The notes under the pieces: model-generated
The model's database searches: none
Seen by the model: only the letters and a program-made list of their open reading frames with translations
Told to the model about the DNA's origin: nothing
Program-made: the position numbers and the translations under genes
Shown: positions 7,657 to 16,318 of the stretch, one piece after another
Numbering within the stretch: the first letter of the stretch is position 1
Layout of the letters: each line of letters opens with the position of its first letter
Assembly: GCA_012729575.1 (NCBI GenBank)
Contig: JAAYCW010000021.1
Location: 1 to 40,214 of the forward strand
Source: Actinomycetota bacterium
Lineage (GTDB): Bacteria; Actinomycetota; Thermoleophilia; RBG-16-64-13
Length of the DNA stretch: 40,214 nt
Reading direction: 5' to 3'

Positions 7657-10600
7657 ATGGCAAGAACAATGGCAGTGATGGACGGCACCGAAGCTATCGC
7701 CCACGTGGCATACAAGCTGAACGAGGTGATCGCCATCTATCCGATAACGCCCTCGAGCCCCATCGCTGAGTATGCCGACGCGTGGAGTGCGGCCGGGAAG
7801 AAGAACCTCTGGGGCACGGTCCCCGTGGTGGTGGAGATGCAGTCGGAGGGTGGGGCAGCCGCGGCGGTCCATGGGGCGCTGCAGGCCGGATCGCTCAGCA
7901 CCACTTTCACCGCCAGCCAGGGCCTTCTCCTCATGATCCCCACGATGTACAAGATCGCGGGGGAGTTGACCCCTACCTGCTGGCACGTGACCGCCCGCTC
8001 CATCGCTGCGCAGGCCCTGAGCATCTTCGGTGACCACCAGGATGTGATGGCGGTCCGTCAGACCGGGTTTGCCCTACTGGCGTCTAACTCGGTGCAGGAG
8101 GCGCACGACATGGCCCTGGTGGGCACTGCGGCTACGCTCAAGTCCCGCGTGCCTTTCATACATTTCTGTGACGGCTTCCGGACCTCGCATGAGGTGCAGA
8201 AGTTCGAGTCGCTGGATGAGGACGTGCTCCGAGCCGTGATCGAGGAGGAGCTGGTGCTGGCGGTGCGGCAGCGGGCCATGAGTCCCGACCGGCCTACGAT
8301 ACGGGGGACGAGCCAGAACCCGGACGTGTACTTCCAGGGGCGCGAGACGGTCAACAAGTACTACCTGGCCACGCCTGCCATCGTGCAGGAGTACATGGAC
8401 CGTTTCGCCGCTCTCACCGGGCGGAGCTATCACCTGTTCGACTACGTCGGGGCTCCCGATGCGGAACGGGTGATCGTGATCATGGGGTCGGGCGCGGAGA
8501 CGGTCCATGAGACGGTCGAGTATTTGGTCGAGCGGGATGAGAAGGTGGGCGTGCTGAAGGTCCGGCTGTACCGGCCCTTCAGCGTCGAGCACTTCGCCGC
8601 CGCGCTCCCCGAAAGCGCCAAGCATCTTGCGGTGCTGGATCGCACCAAGGAGCCCGGATCGGCCGGAGAGCCGCTCTATCTCGATGTGGTCAACGCAGTC
8701 ACTGAGGCGGGGCTGAACGCTGATGTCATCGGCGGTCGCTATGGCCTTTCCAGCAAGGAGTTCACACCGGCCATGGTGAAGGCCGTGTTCGACGAACTGG
8801 CCAAGACCGACCGGAAGAACCACTTCACTATCGGGATCGACGATGACGTCACTCACACCAGCTTGGAATATGACCAAGCCTTCACTACTGAACCGGAAGA
8901 AGTCTACCGGGCCTTGTTCTACGGCCTGGGCAGCGATGGCACGGTGGGGGCCAACAAGAACTCGATCAAGATCATCGGGGAGGATACGGACAACTACGTC
9001 CAGGGCTACTTCGTGTACGACTCCAAAAAGGCCGGGGTCCTCACTGTCAGTCATCTGCGCTTCGGTCCTCAGCCTATCCGGTCGGCATATCTGCTCAACC
9101 GGGCGGATTTCATCGCCTGTCATGTTTGGGCGTTCGTGGAGCGATACAAGACTCTGGCCGCGGCGATACCTGGCGGCACCTTCTTGTTGAATGCGCCTTT
9201 CCCGGCGGACGAGGTGTGGGACAGGCTCCCCTACGAAACCCAGGATTGGATCATCAAGCTTGGTCTGAAGGTATACGCCATAAACGCCTATGAGGTGGCG
9301 AAAGAGACCGGCATGGGCGGGCGCATCAACACCATCATGCAGACCTGCTTCTTCTATCTGTCCAGTATCATCCCCCCGGACCAGGCCGTCGCCGCCATCA
9401 AGAAGGCCATCGAGAAGACTTACGGCAAGCGGGGCGAGAAGGTCGTCCAGATGAACTATAACGCGGTGGACCAGGCGATCGCCAATCTCCACCGCATAGA
9501 GGTTCCGGCGGCGGCAACCACCACCCATCACAAGCCCAAGCTCGTCCCGGCGGAAGCACCGGAGTTCGTGAGGCACGTCACCGCGTGGATCATGGCGGGT
9601 GAGGGGGACAGGCTACCAGTCAGCCGCATCCCCGATGATGGGGTCTGGCCGGTCGACACGACCCGGTGGGAGAAGCGCAACATCGCTCTTGAGATCCCTG
9701 TGTGGGAACCAGAGTTGTGCATCCAGTGCGGCAAGTGCTCGCTCCATTGCCCGCACTCCACCATCCGGACCAAGGTCTACGATCCCGCGGCGCTCGAGGG
9801 CGCTCCGCCCACCTTCAAGTCGGTTGATGCCAAGGGCAAGGAGTACGCGGGTAAGAAGTGGACGGTGCAGGTCGCACCCGAGGATTGCACCGGCTGCAGC
9901 GCCTGCGTGCAAATCTGTCCGGGCAGGGATAAGTCGGATCCCGGGCGACGTGCCATCAACATGGCCTTCCAGCCTCCCCTGCGCGAGCAGGAGCGCGACA
10001 ACTACCGCTTCTTCCTTGGCATACCAGACCCAGACCGCACCGAGGTACGGGTGAGCACGGTGAAGGGCAGCCAGTTGCTGCGGCCCCTGTTGGAGTATCC
10101 GGGGGCCTGTGCCGGATGCGGGGAAACCCCATATCTGAAACTGCTTACGCAATTGGTGGGCGACCGGCTTCTGATCGGCAATGCCACCGGGTGCTCCAGC
10201 ATCTATGGGGGCAATCTCCCCACCACCCCGTACACGACCAACAAGGACGGCCGCGGTCCCACCTGGAACAACTCACTGTTCGAGGACGCAGCCGAGTTCA
10301 GCTACGGCCTCCGGCTGACCGTCGACAAGCAGACCGAGTTCGCTCGGGAACTGGCAACTTCGCTGCGCGACGTGATAGGAGCCGATCTGGTCGATGCGCT
10401 TCTGGCCTCCAAGCAGGAGGACGAGGCCGAGATCTCGGCTCAACGGGCCCGAGTCGAAGAGCTGAAGGCCAAAGTCCAGGCAGCCGCGGCCGCCAACGGA
10501 TCCGACTACCGGTACGGACAGTTGCTCGGAGTGGCCGACTTTTTGGTCAAGAAGAGTGTGTGGGGCGTCGGGGGAGATGGCTGGGCCTTCGACATAGGCT

Positions 10601-11334
10601 ACGGGGGCCTGGATCACGTGCTTGCGTCGCAGCGCGATATCAACCTTCTGGTGTTGAACACGCAGATGTACTCCAATACCGGAGGCCAGATGTCCAAGGC
10701 CACTCCTATGGGATCGGTGGCTCTGTTCGCGGCCGGCGGCAAGACCATCGGCAAGAAGGACCTGGGTTCTATCGCCATGACCTACGGCAACATCTACGTG
10801 GCTCAGGTGGCCATGGGATACAGCGACTCCCAGACCGTCCGAGCCTTCGTGGAGGCTGAATCCTACGACGGGCCCAGTTTGATCATCGCGTACAGCCACT
10901 GCATCAGTATGGGCTTTGACATGGCGAAGGGGTATGAGCACCAGAAGATGGCCGTGCGGTCTGGTTCCTGGATCTGCTATCGGTTCGACCCCCGGTTGGC
11001 GGCTCAGGGCAAGAACCCACTTCAGATCGATTCCAGGGATATGTCGCTGACCGTGGACGACTTCGTGCCGACCGAGAACCGGTACAACATGCTCAAGAAG
11101 GCTCATCCCGACGCCGCGGAGCTCCTGTGGGATAAGGCGCAGAAGCATGTCTGCACTCGTTGGCAGATCCTCAAGCAGCAGGCCGAGATGGTCTACAGCG
11201 AGGCCTGTCCGTTCGAGCCCGGTGTTGTGGACGAGGAGGCTCTGGCTGCGACCGGTGCGCGGGACGTCACCGTGGAGAGCAGCGGTCCGAACCTGCCCGC
11301 CGGCCGCGATCTTGAAGAGGACGGAGACGACTAG
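7657..11334 (+). CDS. nifJ: Pyruvate:ferredoxin (flavodoxin) oxidoreductase, single-chain
   Basis: Oxidatively decarboxylates pyruvate to acetyl-CoA and CO2 while reducing ferredoxin or flavodoxin, a central step in anaerobes that can also run as pyruvate synthase. The 1225-residue protein has all domains fused. The N-terminal domain begins with IYPITPSSPIAEYAD. The gamma-type domain carries GANKNSIKIIGE. A two-cluster ferredoxin domain has CIQCGKCSLHCPH (from about 688) and CTGCSACVQICP (from about 744). The TPP domain has the proximal-cluster cysteines in CAGCGETPY (about 818) and NATGCSSIYGG, and a further cysteine in YSHCISMG (about 1081). The ATG at 7657 follows GGAGAGG. It sits between pyrB and pyrC, with an OsmC peroxidase directly after, which may protect the oxygen-sensitive clusters (inference). 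Confidence 0.97.
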   Translation: MARTMAVMDGTEAIAHVAYKLNEVIAIYPITPSSPIAEYADAWSAAGKKNLWGTVPVVVEMQSEGGAAAAVHGALQAGSLSTTFTASQGLLLMIPTMYKIAGELTPTCWHVTARSIAAQALSIFGDHQDVMAVRQTGFALLASNSVQEAHDMALVGTAATLKSRVPFIHFCDGFRTSHEVQKFESLDEDVLRAVIEEELVLAVRQRAMSPDRPTIRGTSQNPDVYFQGRETVNKYYLATPAIVQEYMDRFAALTGRSYHLFDYVGAPDAERVIVIMGSGAETVHETVEYLVERDEKVGVLKVRLYRPFSVEHFAAALPESAKHLAVLDRTKEPGSAGEPLYLDVVNAVTEAGLNADVIGGRYGLSSKEFTPAMVKAVFDELAKTDRKNHFTIGIDDDVTHTSLEYDQAFTTEPEEVYRALFYGLGSDGTVGANKNSIKIIGEDTDNYVQGYFVYDSKKAGVLTVSHLRFGPQPIRSAYLLNRADFIACHVWAFVERYKTLAAAIPGGTFLLNAPFPADEVWDRLPYETQDWIIKLGLKVYAINAYEVAKETGMGGRINTIMQTCFFYLSSIIPPDQAVAAIKKAIEKTYGKRGEKVVQMNYNAVDQAIANLHRIEVPAAATTTHHKPKLVPAEAPEFVRHVTAWIMAGEGDRLPVSRIPDDGVWPVDTTRWEKRNIALEIPVWEPELCIQCGKCSLHCPHSTIRTKVYDPAALEGAPPTFKSVDAKGKEYAGKKWTVQVAPEDCTGCSACVQICPGRDKSDPGRRAINMAFQPPLREQERDNYRFFLGIPDPDRTEVRVSTVKGSQLLRPLLEYPGACAGCGETPYLKLLTQLVGDRLLIGNATGCSSIYGGNLPTTPYTTNKDGRGPTWNNSLFEDAAEFSYGLRLTVDKQTEFARELATSLRDVIGADLVDALLASKQEDEAEISAQRARVEELKAKVQAAAAANGSDYRYGQLLGVADFLVKKSVWGVGGDGWAFDIGYGGLDHVLASQRDINLLVLNTQMYSNTGGQMSKATPMGSVALFAAGGKTIGKKDLGSIAMTYGNIYVAQVAMGYSDSQTVRAFVEAESYDGPSLIIAYSHCISMGFDMAKGYEHQKMAVRSGSWICYRFDPRLAAQGKNPLQIDSRDMSLTVDDFVPTENRYNMLKKAHPDAAELLWDKAQKHVCTRWQILKQQAEMVYSEACPFEPGVVDEEALAATGARDVTVESSGPNLPAGRDLEEDGDD

Positions 11335-12873: not shown

Positions 12874-14289
12874 ATGGACACCAGCCCTCGTCCCTCCGCG
12901 GCCCGGTTGGCCTGCCGGCCGCTCCGCTCCGAACGATTTCTCCTCACCGGCGTGCGCCTTTTTGATCCTGAGCATGGTGTGGATCTGGAGGGCGACCTCT
13001 TGGTGGAGGAAGGCAAGATCGCAGCCCTGGGTGACAAGGTGGCGCGGCCTCCCGGGGTGGACGTGCTGGACGATCTGGCGGGTTGCTGGGTCTTTCCAGG
13101 ATTCGTGGACCCACATGTCCACCTACGCACGCCGGGCTACGAGTACAAAGAGGATCTGGTCTCCGGGTCTTTGGCGGCCGCCGCGGGCGGGTACGTGACC
13201 GTGGTAGCTATGGCCAACACCGATCCCGTCATCGATTCGGGGCCGGCCGCGGCCTGGGTACTCGAGCAGGCGGCACGGGACGCCCTGGTACGGATCGGAC
13301 AGGTGGGCGCCGTCAGCAAGGGCCTCAGGGGGGAAGAACTGGCGGAGATGCGCGAATTGGCCGACGCAGGGGTGGTGGCCTTCTCCGACGACGGCCGGCC
13401 GGTGACGGATGCCGATCTGCTACAACACGCCCTGCGTTACGCCCGGGGGACGGGTCGACCCCTTCTGCTCCATCTGGAGGACAAGAGTCTGTCTCTTGAC
13501 GGAGTCATGCACGAAGGCAAGTGGAGTGCCCGGCTGGGTTTGCGGGGTATATCCCGCGCCTGTGAGTCTGGCCCGCTGGCCCGAGATCTGGAGATCGTGC
13601 GGTACATGGCCGCCGAAGATAGACGTCTGACGGAAGGCCGGGGCGCCGCCGGCGCTGAGGCGCCGGGGCACGTCCCTATGGTGCACTTCCAACACCTTTC
13701 CGCCGCCGACAGCGTAGCCCTCATGCGTCGCGCTAAGGACGAAGGACTGCCTGTAACCGCCGAGGCTACGCCGCATCATCTGCTGCTGACCGACGAACAT
13801 CTCGGCAGCTTCGATCCGAACCTCAGAGTGAATCCGCCCCTCCGCTCCGCAGCCGACAGGGAGGCCCTGGTCGCGGCTCTGGCCGACGGCACCATCGACT
13901 GTCTGGGTACCGATCACGCTCCCCACGCTCCGCAGGAGAAGGAAGTCCCCATCGAGGACGCCCTCAACGGCACCGTGGGCCTGGAGACGGCCTTCGCCGC
14001 TCTCTACACCGGGTTGGTCTTGACCGGAGATCTGACGCTGGCCCGGCTGGTGGAGGTCATGTCTGGGGCGCCGTGCCGGGTCCTGGGTCTGGTGGAGCCT
14101 CATCTGACCGAGGCTGCACCGGCGGACTTCTGCGTCGTGGACCTCGACGAGACCTGGAAGGTCACGCCGGCCCACTTGCGGGGGAAGAGCCGCAACTCAG
14201 CCTTCCTGGAGGAGACACTCACGGGGCGGGTGCGGCTGACGGTGGTGGATGGGGCGCGCCGCTTCGCGCGCGCCCGGGGAGAGGTTTGA
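12874..14289 (+). CDS. pyrC: Dihydroorotase (class I)
   Basis: Zinc amidohydrolase that cyclises carbamoyl-aspartate to dihydroorotate, the third pyrimidine step. From the ATG at 12874 it is 471 residues, somewhat longer than the usual 420-430. The extra length comes from an N-terminal tail of about 20 residues and an insertion near EGRGAAGAEAPGH. The metal site DPHVHLRTPGYEYKED is present, with GTDHAPHAPQEKE carrying the catalytic aspartate near the C terminus. The usual AMPNT block reads AMANT here. The start is chosen from the AAAGG site in the PyrR element. The TGA overlaps the carA ATG by one base, so the two are translationally coupled. Confidence 0.95.
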   Translation: MDTSPRPSAARLACRPLRSERFLLTGVRLFDPEHGVDLEGDLLVEEGKIAALGDKVARPPGVDVLDDLAGCWVFPGFVDPHVHLRTPGYEYKEDLVSGSLAAAAGGYVTVVAMANTDPVIDSGPAAAWVLEQAARDALVRIGQVGAVSKGLRGEELAEMRELADAGVVAFSDDGRPVTDADLLQHALRYARGTGRPLLLHLEDKSLSLDGVMHEGKWSARLGLRGISRACESGPLARDLEIVRYMAAEDRRLTEGRGAAGAEAPGHVPMVHFQHLSAADSVALMRRAKDEGLPVTAEATPHHLLLTDEHLGSFDPNLRVNPPLRSAADREALVAALADGTIDCLGTDHAPHAPQEKEVPIEDALNGTVGLETAFAALYTGLVLTGDLTLARLVEVMSGAPCRVLGLVEPHLTEAAPADFCVVDLDETWKVTPAHLRGKSRNSAFLEETLTGRVRLTVVDGARRFARARGEV

Positions 14290-15515
14290 TGTACCGGGAT
14301 TCGGTACCCGGATACGTAGTGCTCAAGGACGGCACGGTCTTCGCGGGCTTCGGGTTCGCGGCTCAGGGCCGGGTCTTGGGAGAGGTGGTTTTCAATACTT
14401 CCATGACCGGCTACCAGGAGGTCGTCACCGATCCGTCCTATCACGGGCAGATGGTCGTCTTCACCTACCCGATGATCGGCAACTACGGCGTCTGCGCCGG
14501 TCTGGCCGAGTCCGATACCGTACACTCGCGGGCTATCATCGTTCGGGAGGTTAAGAACACCTCTAGGACCACCGGCTGTCCGGAGGGTTGGGTGGACTGG
14601 CTCACCGACCAAGGCACAGTGGGGGTGGGCGGCATCGACACGCGCGCTCTCACCCGGCGCATCCGGGAGCATGGGGCCATGACGGCGTGCGTGGCCGCCG
14701 GTCCCGATCTCAAAGTGAACGGTCTTCTGGCGGCGGCTCAAGGCCATCCCGACATGGCCGGATTGGATCTGGCCAGCGCCGTCAGCTGTCGGGAGCCGTA
14801 TGAGTGGTCTGCGCCCGGTCCTCACGCCCCTGGCCCTCGCCTGCGGGTGGTGGCGTACGACTACGGAATCAAACGCAGCATCCTCAAGAGCCTGGCGGCC
14901 ATCGACTGCGACGTCACGGTGGTGCCGGCTCACTGGACGGCCGAACAGACCCTGGCCATGAAGCCCGACGGTGTGTTCCTTTCCAACGGCCCGGGGGATC
15001 CGGCGGCAGTGGGGTACGCGGTGGAGACCATCCGGAGCCTCTTGGGGAAGGTGCCCATCTTCGGCGTGTGTCTCGGCCACCAGTTGCTCGCTCTCGCCAC
15101 GGGGCTCTCCACCTATAAGCTGATGTTCGGCCATCGCGGCTCCAACCATCCCGTAAGGGACTACTTCACGGGTCGGGTGGAGATTACCAGCCAGAACCAC
15201 GGTTTTGCCGTCAGTCCGCCTGTTGCGGTCCAAGAGGCCCTCGATCGTGGCTCGGTGATAGGGGAAGGCGGCGTCGCCGGATTGGAGGCGGATGAGTTGC
15301 TCGTCGAGTCGGATCAGGGCATGGTCCAGATCACCCACCTCAATCTCAACGATGGAACGGTCGAAGGACTACGGCTTGTTGATCTTCCGGCCTTTTCGGT
15401 CCAGTACCACCCGGAAGCAGGTCCGGGGCCGCACGACAGCCAATATCTGTTTGAGAGATTCAGAACGCTGATGTCCGAGGGTGCCGGCAACAAGCCGGTT
15501 CCGGCGAGGAGGTGA
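14289..15515 (+). CDS. carA: Carbamoyl-phosphate synthase small (glutaminase) chain
   Basis: Releases ammonia from glutamine for carbamoyl-phosphate synthesis by the large chain. It is 408 residues from the ATG at 14289. The N-terminal domain has VVFNTSMTGYQEVVTDPSY and a C-terminal class I glutamine amidotransferase domain follows. The triad is visible: the cysteine in FGVCLGHQLLALA, and the histidine and glutamate in VQYHPEAGPGPHD. The start overlaps the pyrC stop (TGATG). carB, which normally follows, is absent here; a DUF3467 gene begins two bases after the carA stop instead. The large chain must be encoded outside the window. Confidence 0.96.
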   Translation: MYRDSVPGYVVLKDGTVFAGFGFAAQGRVLGEVVFNTSMTGYQEVVTDPSYHGQMVVFTYPMIGNYGVCAGLAESDTVHSRAIIVREVKNTSRTTGCPEGWVDWLTDQGTVGVGGIDTRALTRRIREHGAMTACVAAGPDLKVNGLLAAAQGHPDMAGLDLASAVSCREPYEWSAPGPHAPGPRLRVVAYDYGIKRSILKSLAAIDCDVTVVPAHWTAEQTLAMKPDGVFLSNGPGDPAAVGYAVETIRSLLGKVPIFGVCLGHQLLALATGLSTYKLMFGHRGSNHPVRDYFTGRVEITSQNHGFAVSPPVAVQEALDRGSVIGEGGVAGLEADELLVESDQGMVQITHLNLNDGTVEGLRLVDLPAFSVQYHPEAGPGPHDSQYLFERFRTLMSEGAGNKPVPARR

Positions 15516-15517
15516 TC

Positions 15518-15826
15518 ATGGCGGCAGGGGAAGCTACGAAAGGCACTCCCGACGGCGGCAGCAACGGTCACAAGCGCACCGACCTGAAGCTACGGGTACC
15601 CGAGCAGGTCGCCGGCGGGGCGTACGCCAACAGCATGATGGTGCAGCACACGGCGTCGGAGTTCGTCATGGACTTCGCTATGGTCATGGGCGGCAACGGC
15701 CAAGTGGTGGCGCGGGTGGTGACCAGTCCCGGGCACATGAAGCACATCGTGGCGGCTCTGACCGAGAACATTCGCAAGTACGAAGCCGCTCACGGTCCGA
15801 TCGGGCCCCGGCCGAAGGATGAGTGA
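15518..15826 (+). CDS. DUF3467-family protein
   Basis: A 102-residue protein that fits the DUF3467 family, small soluble proteins of unknown function. The recognisable core is VAGGAYANSMMVQHTASEFVMDF, followed by a short segment ending in SPGHMKHIVAALTENIRKYE. The first 30 residues are Gly/Lys/Asp-rich and look disordered. There is no signal peptide or membrane segment. The ATG at 15518 has an excellent GGAGGTGAT ribosome site that overlaps the carA stop, so it is in the same transcript as pyrC-carA. The selenocysteine peroxiredoxin follows 27 bases later. I do not assign a function. Confidence 0.8.
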   Translation: MAAGEATKGTPDGGSNGHKRTDLKLRVPEQVAGGAYANSMMVQHTASEFVMDFAMVMGGNGQVVARVVTSPGHMKHIVAALTENIRKYEAAHGPIGPRPKDE

Positions 15827-15853
15827 CCAGTCAGATATCAAGGAGGCATGGAG

Positions 15854-16318
15854 ATGCTGAGTGTGGGCGATAAGGCGCCGTTCTTCAAAGCGGCGGGAAG
15901 CGAGGGCGAAGTCGATCTGGCTGCTCTCTTGGAGTCGAAGCCGGTGGTGCTGTACTTCTTCCCTCGGGCGCTGACCCCAGGTTGAACGACCGAGGCGGTT
16001 GAGTTCAACCAATTGCTTCCAGAGTTCGAGGAGCTGGGCGTGACGGTAGTCGGGACCTCGGTGGACCCGGTGGCCCGGCTGCAGAAATTCCGTGACAAGT
16101 ACGATCTGCAGTTCCCGTTCGCCAGCGACGAGGATCGGGCTATCGGCGAGGCGTACGGGACCTTGAAAGGAGATCTGTCCAGCTCGCACGAACGGGATAC
16201 AGTGCTCATCGGCAAGGATGGAACGATTCTGTTAGCCTATCAGAGGGTCAAGGCAAAGGGCCATGCGGCGGATGTGCTCCGTGAGACGAGGAGACTGCGT
16301 GAGGAAGGCCGGATCTAG
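15854..16318 (+). CDS. Selenocysteine peroxiredoxin (AhpC/BCP-type), TGA-encoded Sec44
   Basis: A 154-residue peroxiredoxin that would reduce H2O2 and organic peroxides. The frame from ATG 15854 contains one internal TGA at 15983-15985, codon 44. It sits exactly where the catalytic peroxidatic cysteine lies in the BCP/PrxQ motif: PRALTPG-TGA-TTEAVEF against the usual TPGCTTEA. Both sides are clearly one protein: VGDKAPFF, the VVLYFFP strand before the TGA, then VTVVGTSVDP, FPFASDEDRAI and DTVLIGKDGTILLAY after it. A SECIS-like hairpin follows the TGA. The start is fixed by AGGAGG at 15841, seven bases before ATG 15854 (ATG 15848 is too close). No cysteine is encoded anywhere, so Sec would be the only redox residue and an outside thiol would have to regenerate it. 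A disabling mutation is less likely, since the rest is intact. The selenocysteine machinery lies outside the window. Confidence 0.9.
15983..16019 (+). promoter_or_regulatory. Sec codon and bacterial SECIS-like hairpin
   Basis: Directly after the UGA (15983-15985) the mRNA can form a lower stem GAGGC (15992-15996) with GCTTC (16015-16019), including one G-U pair. An upper stem follows, GGTTG (15997-16001) with CAACC (16006-16010), with a loop AGTT (16002-16005) and a four-base bulge AATT on the 3' side. The loop begins 16 nt after the UGA and has G in its second position. Both features fit the published bacterial SECIS model (apical loop about 16-37 nt from UGA, G among the first two loop bases). 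An alternative fold, ACCG/CGGT with loop AGG, lies closer to the UGA. Confidence 0.75.

Follow-up and report, generated by a model that had tools for sequence, protein, structure and literature searches.

Selenocysteine (Sec) peroxiredoxins with a TxxU motif, assigned to COG1225 (Bcp), constitute an established family catalogued since 2005 (PMC1088965, PMC1794560, PMC9312934, PMC13188914; catalogues of Zhang and Gladyshev), with 43 sequences recorded from the Sargasso Sea (PMC1088965), 253 marine sequences (PMC2398784) and occurrence in 78 organisms (PMC5029168). The gene analyzed here is a fresh member of this family. It lies in a 40,214-nucleotide stretch of DNA, hereafter the window (contig JAAYCW010000021.1 of assembly GCA_012729575.1). 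Like the catalogued proteins (COG1225/PF00578), its product displays the same fold family, the PxxxTxxU motif, UGA at the peroxidatic position and a predicted SECIS element immediately downstream, while it differs from them in originating from the Actinomycetota order around RBG_16_64_13 and in adjoining carA-DUF3467. The original prediction, made from the DNA letters, held that a Sec peroxiredoxin in such a genome and context looked new; this does not apply to the kind of protein, the family being well described (PMC1088965, PMC9312934, PMC13188914), and could apply to no more than the lineage and the genomic setting. No report of a Sec peroxiredoxin for this Actinomycetota lineage was found in the open-access literature searched. 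The comparison then drawn with Eubacterium acidaminophilum was apt inasmuch as its PrxU (NF040737) is also a Sec peroxiredoxin, but the window protein resembles other kinds more closely: it belongs to a different subfamily, and its identity as PrxU was rejected (38.2 bits at a cut-off of 270).

The window corresponds to contig 76 of a 2.2 Mb draft genome (G000; 97% complete, 206 contigs). Translation of the gene (MLSVGDKAPFF...FPRALTPG*TTEAVEFNQL...REEGRI*) contains a single internal TGA, at residue 44. When this codon was read as Sec, one AhpC-TSA (PF00578) match (5.2e-32, 110.8 bits at a cut-off of 26) spanned residues 4-125, which confirmed that the TGA occupies the place of the peroxidatic cysteine in a BCP/PrxQ-type peroxiredoxin with full family sequence on both sides. 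The good ribosome-binding site noted earlier was found as well (Table 1); another in-frame ATG upstream, at 15848, sits too near the Shine-Dalgarno sequence to serve. As was expected for standard gene calling, an ordinary ORF caller returned a 101-codon TTG-start fragment at 16013 and nothing more. All TGAs of the window, whichever strand they lie on, were scored for codon use of the coding type on their two sides; the TGA at 15983 received the top score (15.1), the next two (10.5 and 9.5) being ordinary gene ends. In pairwise comparisons with four orthologues, dN and dS were similar 5' and 3' of the TGA, and dN was well below dS on either side, indicating purifying selection. Codon use and selection thus carry on unaltered beyond the TGA. 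The frame, the conservation of the codon, the Sec machinery, the hairpin and the fold can all be read from the sequence data, and we are highly confident that the gene is a complete, functional selenoprotein gene, in which UGA codon 44 is decoded as Sec and whose product is a peroxidase of the PrxQ/Bcp fold.

Table 1. Features of the Sec-PrxQ locus (positions in the window).
Feature	Position	Strand	Description	Evidence
carA, carbamoyl-phosphate synthase small chain	14073..15515 (start provisional)	+		PF00988 3.3e-46, PF00117 1.1e-46; synteny
DUF3467 gene	15512..15826	+	Conserved neighbor	PF11950 3.3e-20; adjoins prx in named relatives
Shine-Dalgarno sequence AAGGAGG	15840..15846	+	7 nt upstream of the ATG start	Sequence
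Sec-PrxQ gene (predicted)	15854..16318	+	154-residue peroxiredoxin; catalytic P37, T41, Sec44, R114; cysteine-free	AhpC-TSA match, motif, structure model
TGA codon, predicted Sec reading	15983..15985	+	Peroxidatic position; TGA in 12/14 orthologues of the order, TGT (Cys) in 2	
Bacterial SECIS hairpin (predicted)	15992..16019	+	Apical stem 15997-16001 / 16006-16010, loop AGUU 16002-16005, 16 nt after UGA	Covariation, published model

The structure model of the protein (pLDDT 97.6, pTM 0.92) had its best PDB matches among PrxQ/Bcp proteins (TM 0.84-0.90), and the PxxxTxxU motif is present as P37-RAL-T41-PG-U44, with UGA at U. Canonical PrxQ/Bcp enzymes (NF006960; PDB 5ENU, 5IIZ, 3DRN, 5EPF) share with it the fold, the length and the catalytic residues; the window protein, in contrast, has the predicted Sec where these carry the peroxidatic Cys, a deletion of five residues after residue 108, and no resolving Cys, as the corresponding position, +5 from Sec44, is occupied by V49. 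Assignment to the canonical 2-Cys PrxQ/Bcp enzymes was rejected on this last feature and on the NF006960 score (89.1 bits at a curated cut-off of 140). Neither the window protein nor most of its close orthologues contain any cysteine; consequently, no internal selenenylsulfide can be formed, and an outside thiol must resolve the oxidized residue, as in a 1-Sec enzyme. The outside reductant is probably thioredoxin; a single Cys thioredoxin was detected in the genome at the search threshold applied. The missing resolving residue, together with upstream neighbors that belong to pyrimidine synthesis and not to stress response, would also suit a Sec thiol-disulfide oxidoreductase or a redox sensor. 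We consider such a function unlikely, given that the full peroxidatic set (P37, T41, Sec44 and R114) is conserved and that the protein possesses no UxxC motif.

Together with an amidohydrolase gene, probably pyrC, carA and DUF3467 adjoin prx in most of the named relatives, these being public MAGs such as Actinobacteria bacterium RBG_16_64_13, and parts of the amidohydrolase and carA genes are found near prx even in an orthologue with 42% identity. A partner role for the downstream FAD protein, suggested by its position and nothing else, was rejected. In bacteria, release factor 2 competes with the decoding of UGA, and the gene follows carA and DUF3467 immediately and in the same orientation; hence, Sec insertion might be conditional, the UGA acting as a stop at low selenium and as a selenium-responsive switch for the gene itself or for those downstream. 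Such a switch seems improbable, as no attenuator or regulatory element was identified and an Rfam search of the window gave no match; moreover, it would supplement the Sec reading of codon 44, not replace it.

Orthologues of the gene were detected in 14 of the 18 genomes sampled from the order. At codon 44, twelve of them carry TGA and two (L026 and L028) carry TGT (Cys) precisely at the UGA position, with identity to the window protein down to 42%; more distant Bcp proteins have TGC or TGT. The alignment suggested earlier for residue 44 has thus come out in favor, with TGA or a Cys codon there. The genome G012 (96% complete), one of the two with the Cys form, yielded neither selB nor tRNA-Sec nor selD, whereas the other, G002, retains the Sec machinery. 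In G003 (320 contigs), TGA and selD are present and selB and tRNA-Sec were not found, which is probably an assembly gap. The same peroxidatic TGA was also observed in Acidobacteria (L040, L041, L045, L047, L054) and Chloroflexi (L046, L055), where the hairpin loop differs slightly in size, and in three small (1.8 Mb) near-complete actinomycetotal genomes (G419, G449, G468; L083, L084, L091; TPGUTHEAKDF), where the AGUU hairpin is not at its usual place.

The predicted hairpin downstream of the UGA fits the bacterial SECIS model, the constraints of which were taken from PMC13188914, in its AGUU loop, 5-bp stem, distance of 16 nt and stability (-11.9 kcal/mol). Folding of the single sequence offers an alternative with a 10-bp stem and an 8-nt loop beginning at the same base as AGUU. 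A hairpin with an AGUU loop starting 16 nt past the UGA is common to 17 Actinomycetota sequences, in which stem pairing amounts to 82.4% (69.4% in shuffles) and the covariation score to 0.350 (0.128 in shuffles, with 0 of 500 shuffles reaching 0.350, and at most 0.146 when the partner columns were slid by 1-3). Of the 11 TGA sequences in the order whose stem position encodes Val, 10 employ GTT, a codon that makes up 6% of Val codons in the window genes; the relatives being non-independent, the pairing, covariation and GTT figures are not probabilities. Double-sided changes occur in three pairs (G-C/C-G, G-C/C-G/A-U and U-A/C-G). The two Cys orthologues retain just three apical pairs; the 5-bp apical stem of L030 is interrupted, and another fold is possible. 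Since tests of hairpin stability against synonymous recoding, performed sequence by sequence, were mostly non-significant individually, the assignment as SECIS is based on covariation and the published model. TGAs of this kind are often annotated as pseudogenes, and the draft assembly consists of 206 contigs, so a sequencing error (TGA for TGC or TGT) or a recently inactivated gene could be thought of. This reading has hardly any probability left: it was ruled out by conservation of the TGA in 12 orthologues from separate assemblies, four named public MAGs among them, and is further contradicted by the equal constraint on either side of the codon and by the covarying hairpin.

All components of Sec decoding sought on the advice of the original prediction (selA, selB, tRNA-Sec (selC) and selD) were found in the genome, and the absence of selB and selC, which would have spoken against it, did not occur: tRNA-Sec (79.5 bits, with ARAGORN concurring), selB and selA, the last identified by sequence and position and not by profile, adjoin in one cluster on contig 109 (L016). 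Neighbors of this cluster are a polyprenyl-synthase-like gene and a drug-transporter-like gene. Two selD genes (L017 on contig 163 and L018 on contig 68) each contain an in-frame TGA in the GxGUACK motif followed by a hairpin. The relatives have one selD each, the candidate origins of the extra copy being a paralogue or contamination. Across the order, selB and tRNA-Sec were each detected in 14 of the 18 genomes and selD in 17, the sole genome without selD being G012.

The occurrence of TGA extends to other AhpC-TSA proteins of the order. In the genome under study, all four PF00578 genes carry it; in the 18 genomes, 44 of the 49 PF00578 genes possess a single TGA each, in every case at the catalytic position, within motifs TxGU, FTFVUPTEL, DWTPVU, NRGFxUPxC and of the SWUxxC type. 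The five genes without TGA belong to G012 (two), G002 (two) and G010 (one). None of the 30 PF00085 thioredoxins of the order has a TGA, which guards against both a search artefact and code reassignment. Genome-wide reassignment of UGA (e.g., to Trp or Gly), under which the frame would be open with TGA as a sense codon, is the least credible reading and was ruled out by UGA serving as a stop, since TGA ends ordinary window genes (15824, 2546), in-frame TGA is lacking from those thioredoxins, and homologues without TGA have Cys at the homologous residue. Among the remaining AhpC-TSA genes of the studied genome, the one on contig 175 (L095) encodes a predicted true Sec PrxU (378.8 bits at the cut-off of 270) with FTFVUPTEL, in which the usual resolving Cys is missing too; the other two products are predicted Sec proteins as well, a SelL-like one of the UxxC type encoded on contig 123 (L096) and, on contig 117 (L097), a TlpA-like lipoprotein carrying WUSTC. 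The gene of the latter (L097, 1-2086) adjoins lgt-like and thioredoxin genes, and in several relatives as well TlpA-like and thioredoxin genes are 1-2 kb apart. It is likely, in our opinion, that in this order-level lineage Sec took over almost the whole AhpC-TSA superfamily, including five subtypes (PrxQ, PrxU, the DWTPVU type, SelL-like UxxC and TlpA-like WUxxC), while thioredoxin is still Cys-based, that the window protein is a 1-Sec peroxidase which contains no cysteine and is reduced by a Cys thioredoxin, and that the genome devoid of Sec machinery possesses nothing but Cys forms. In the open-access papers searched, no description of a takeover of this kind was found.

A tree was built from 62 homologues selected for their similarity to the window protein. 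In it, a supported branch (95/87) has the Actinomycetota, Acidobacteriota and Chloroflexota Sec forms together on one side, a lone Caldilineaceae sequence excepted. The tree implies a minimum of four changes between Sec and Cys, two of them being the Cys orthologues inside the family of the window protein; as it is unrooted and its homologues were selected in this way, the direction of these changes is inferred. For Prx, a survey of 2006 listed changes in the Cys-to-Sec direction and no others (PMC1794560).

The mode of Sec insertion, the peroxidase activity and the reductant may be deduced from the sequence data as follows. SelD would produce selenophosphate and SelA would charge tRNA-Sec; SelB, bound to the hairpin just 3' of the UGA, would bring the Sec-tRNA, and the ribosome would read codon 44 as Sec. 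Activated by Pro37, Thr41 and Arg114, Sec44 would attack the peroxide and be converted to a selenenic acid, which a thiol from outside the chain, most likely that of an ordinary Cys thioredoxin, would resolve.

The window also encodes, at 7657-11334, a pyruvate:ferredoxin (flavodoxin) oxidoreductase, which suggests that the host, with its several peroxiredoxins, has an anaerobic metabolism. Because standard annotation breaks or overlooks such genes, the peroxide defence of an uncultured lineage may be wrongly taken for truncated or absent. A clade that is nearly all-Sec in one superfamily, together with a sister genome lacking Sec and carrying Cys forms, represents a natural experiment on keeping or dropping selenocysteine, and it is to be predicted that the peroxide defence in these bacteria would depend on the supply of selenium.
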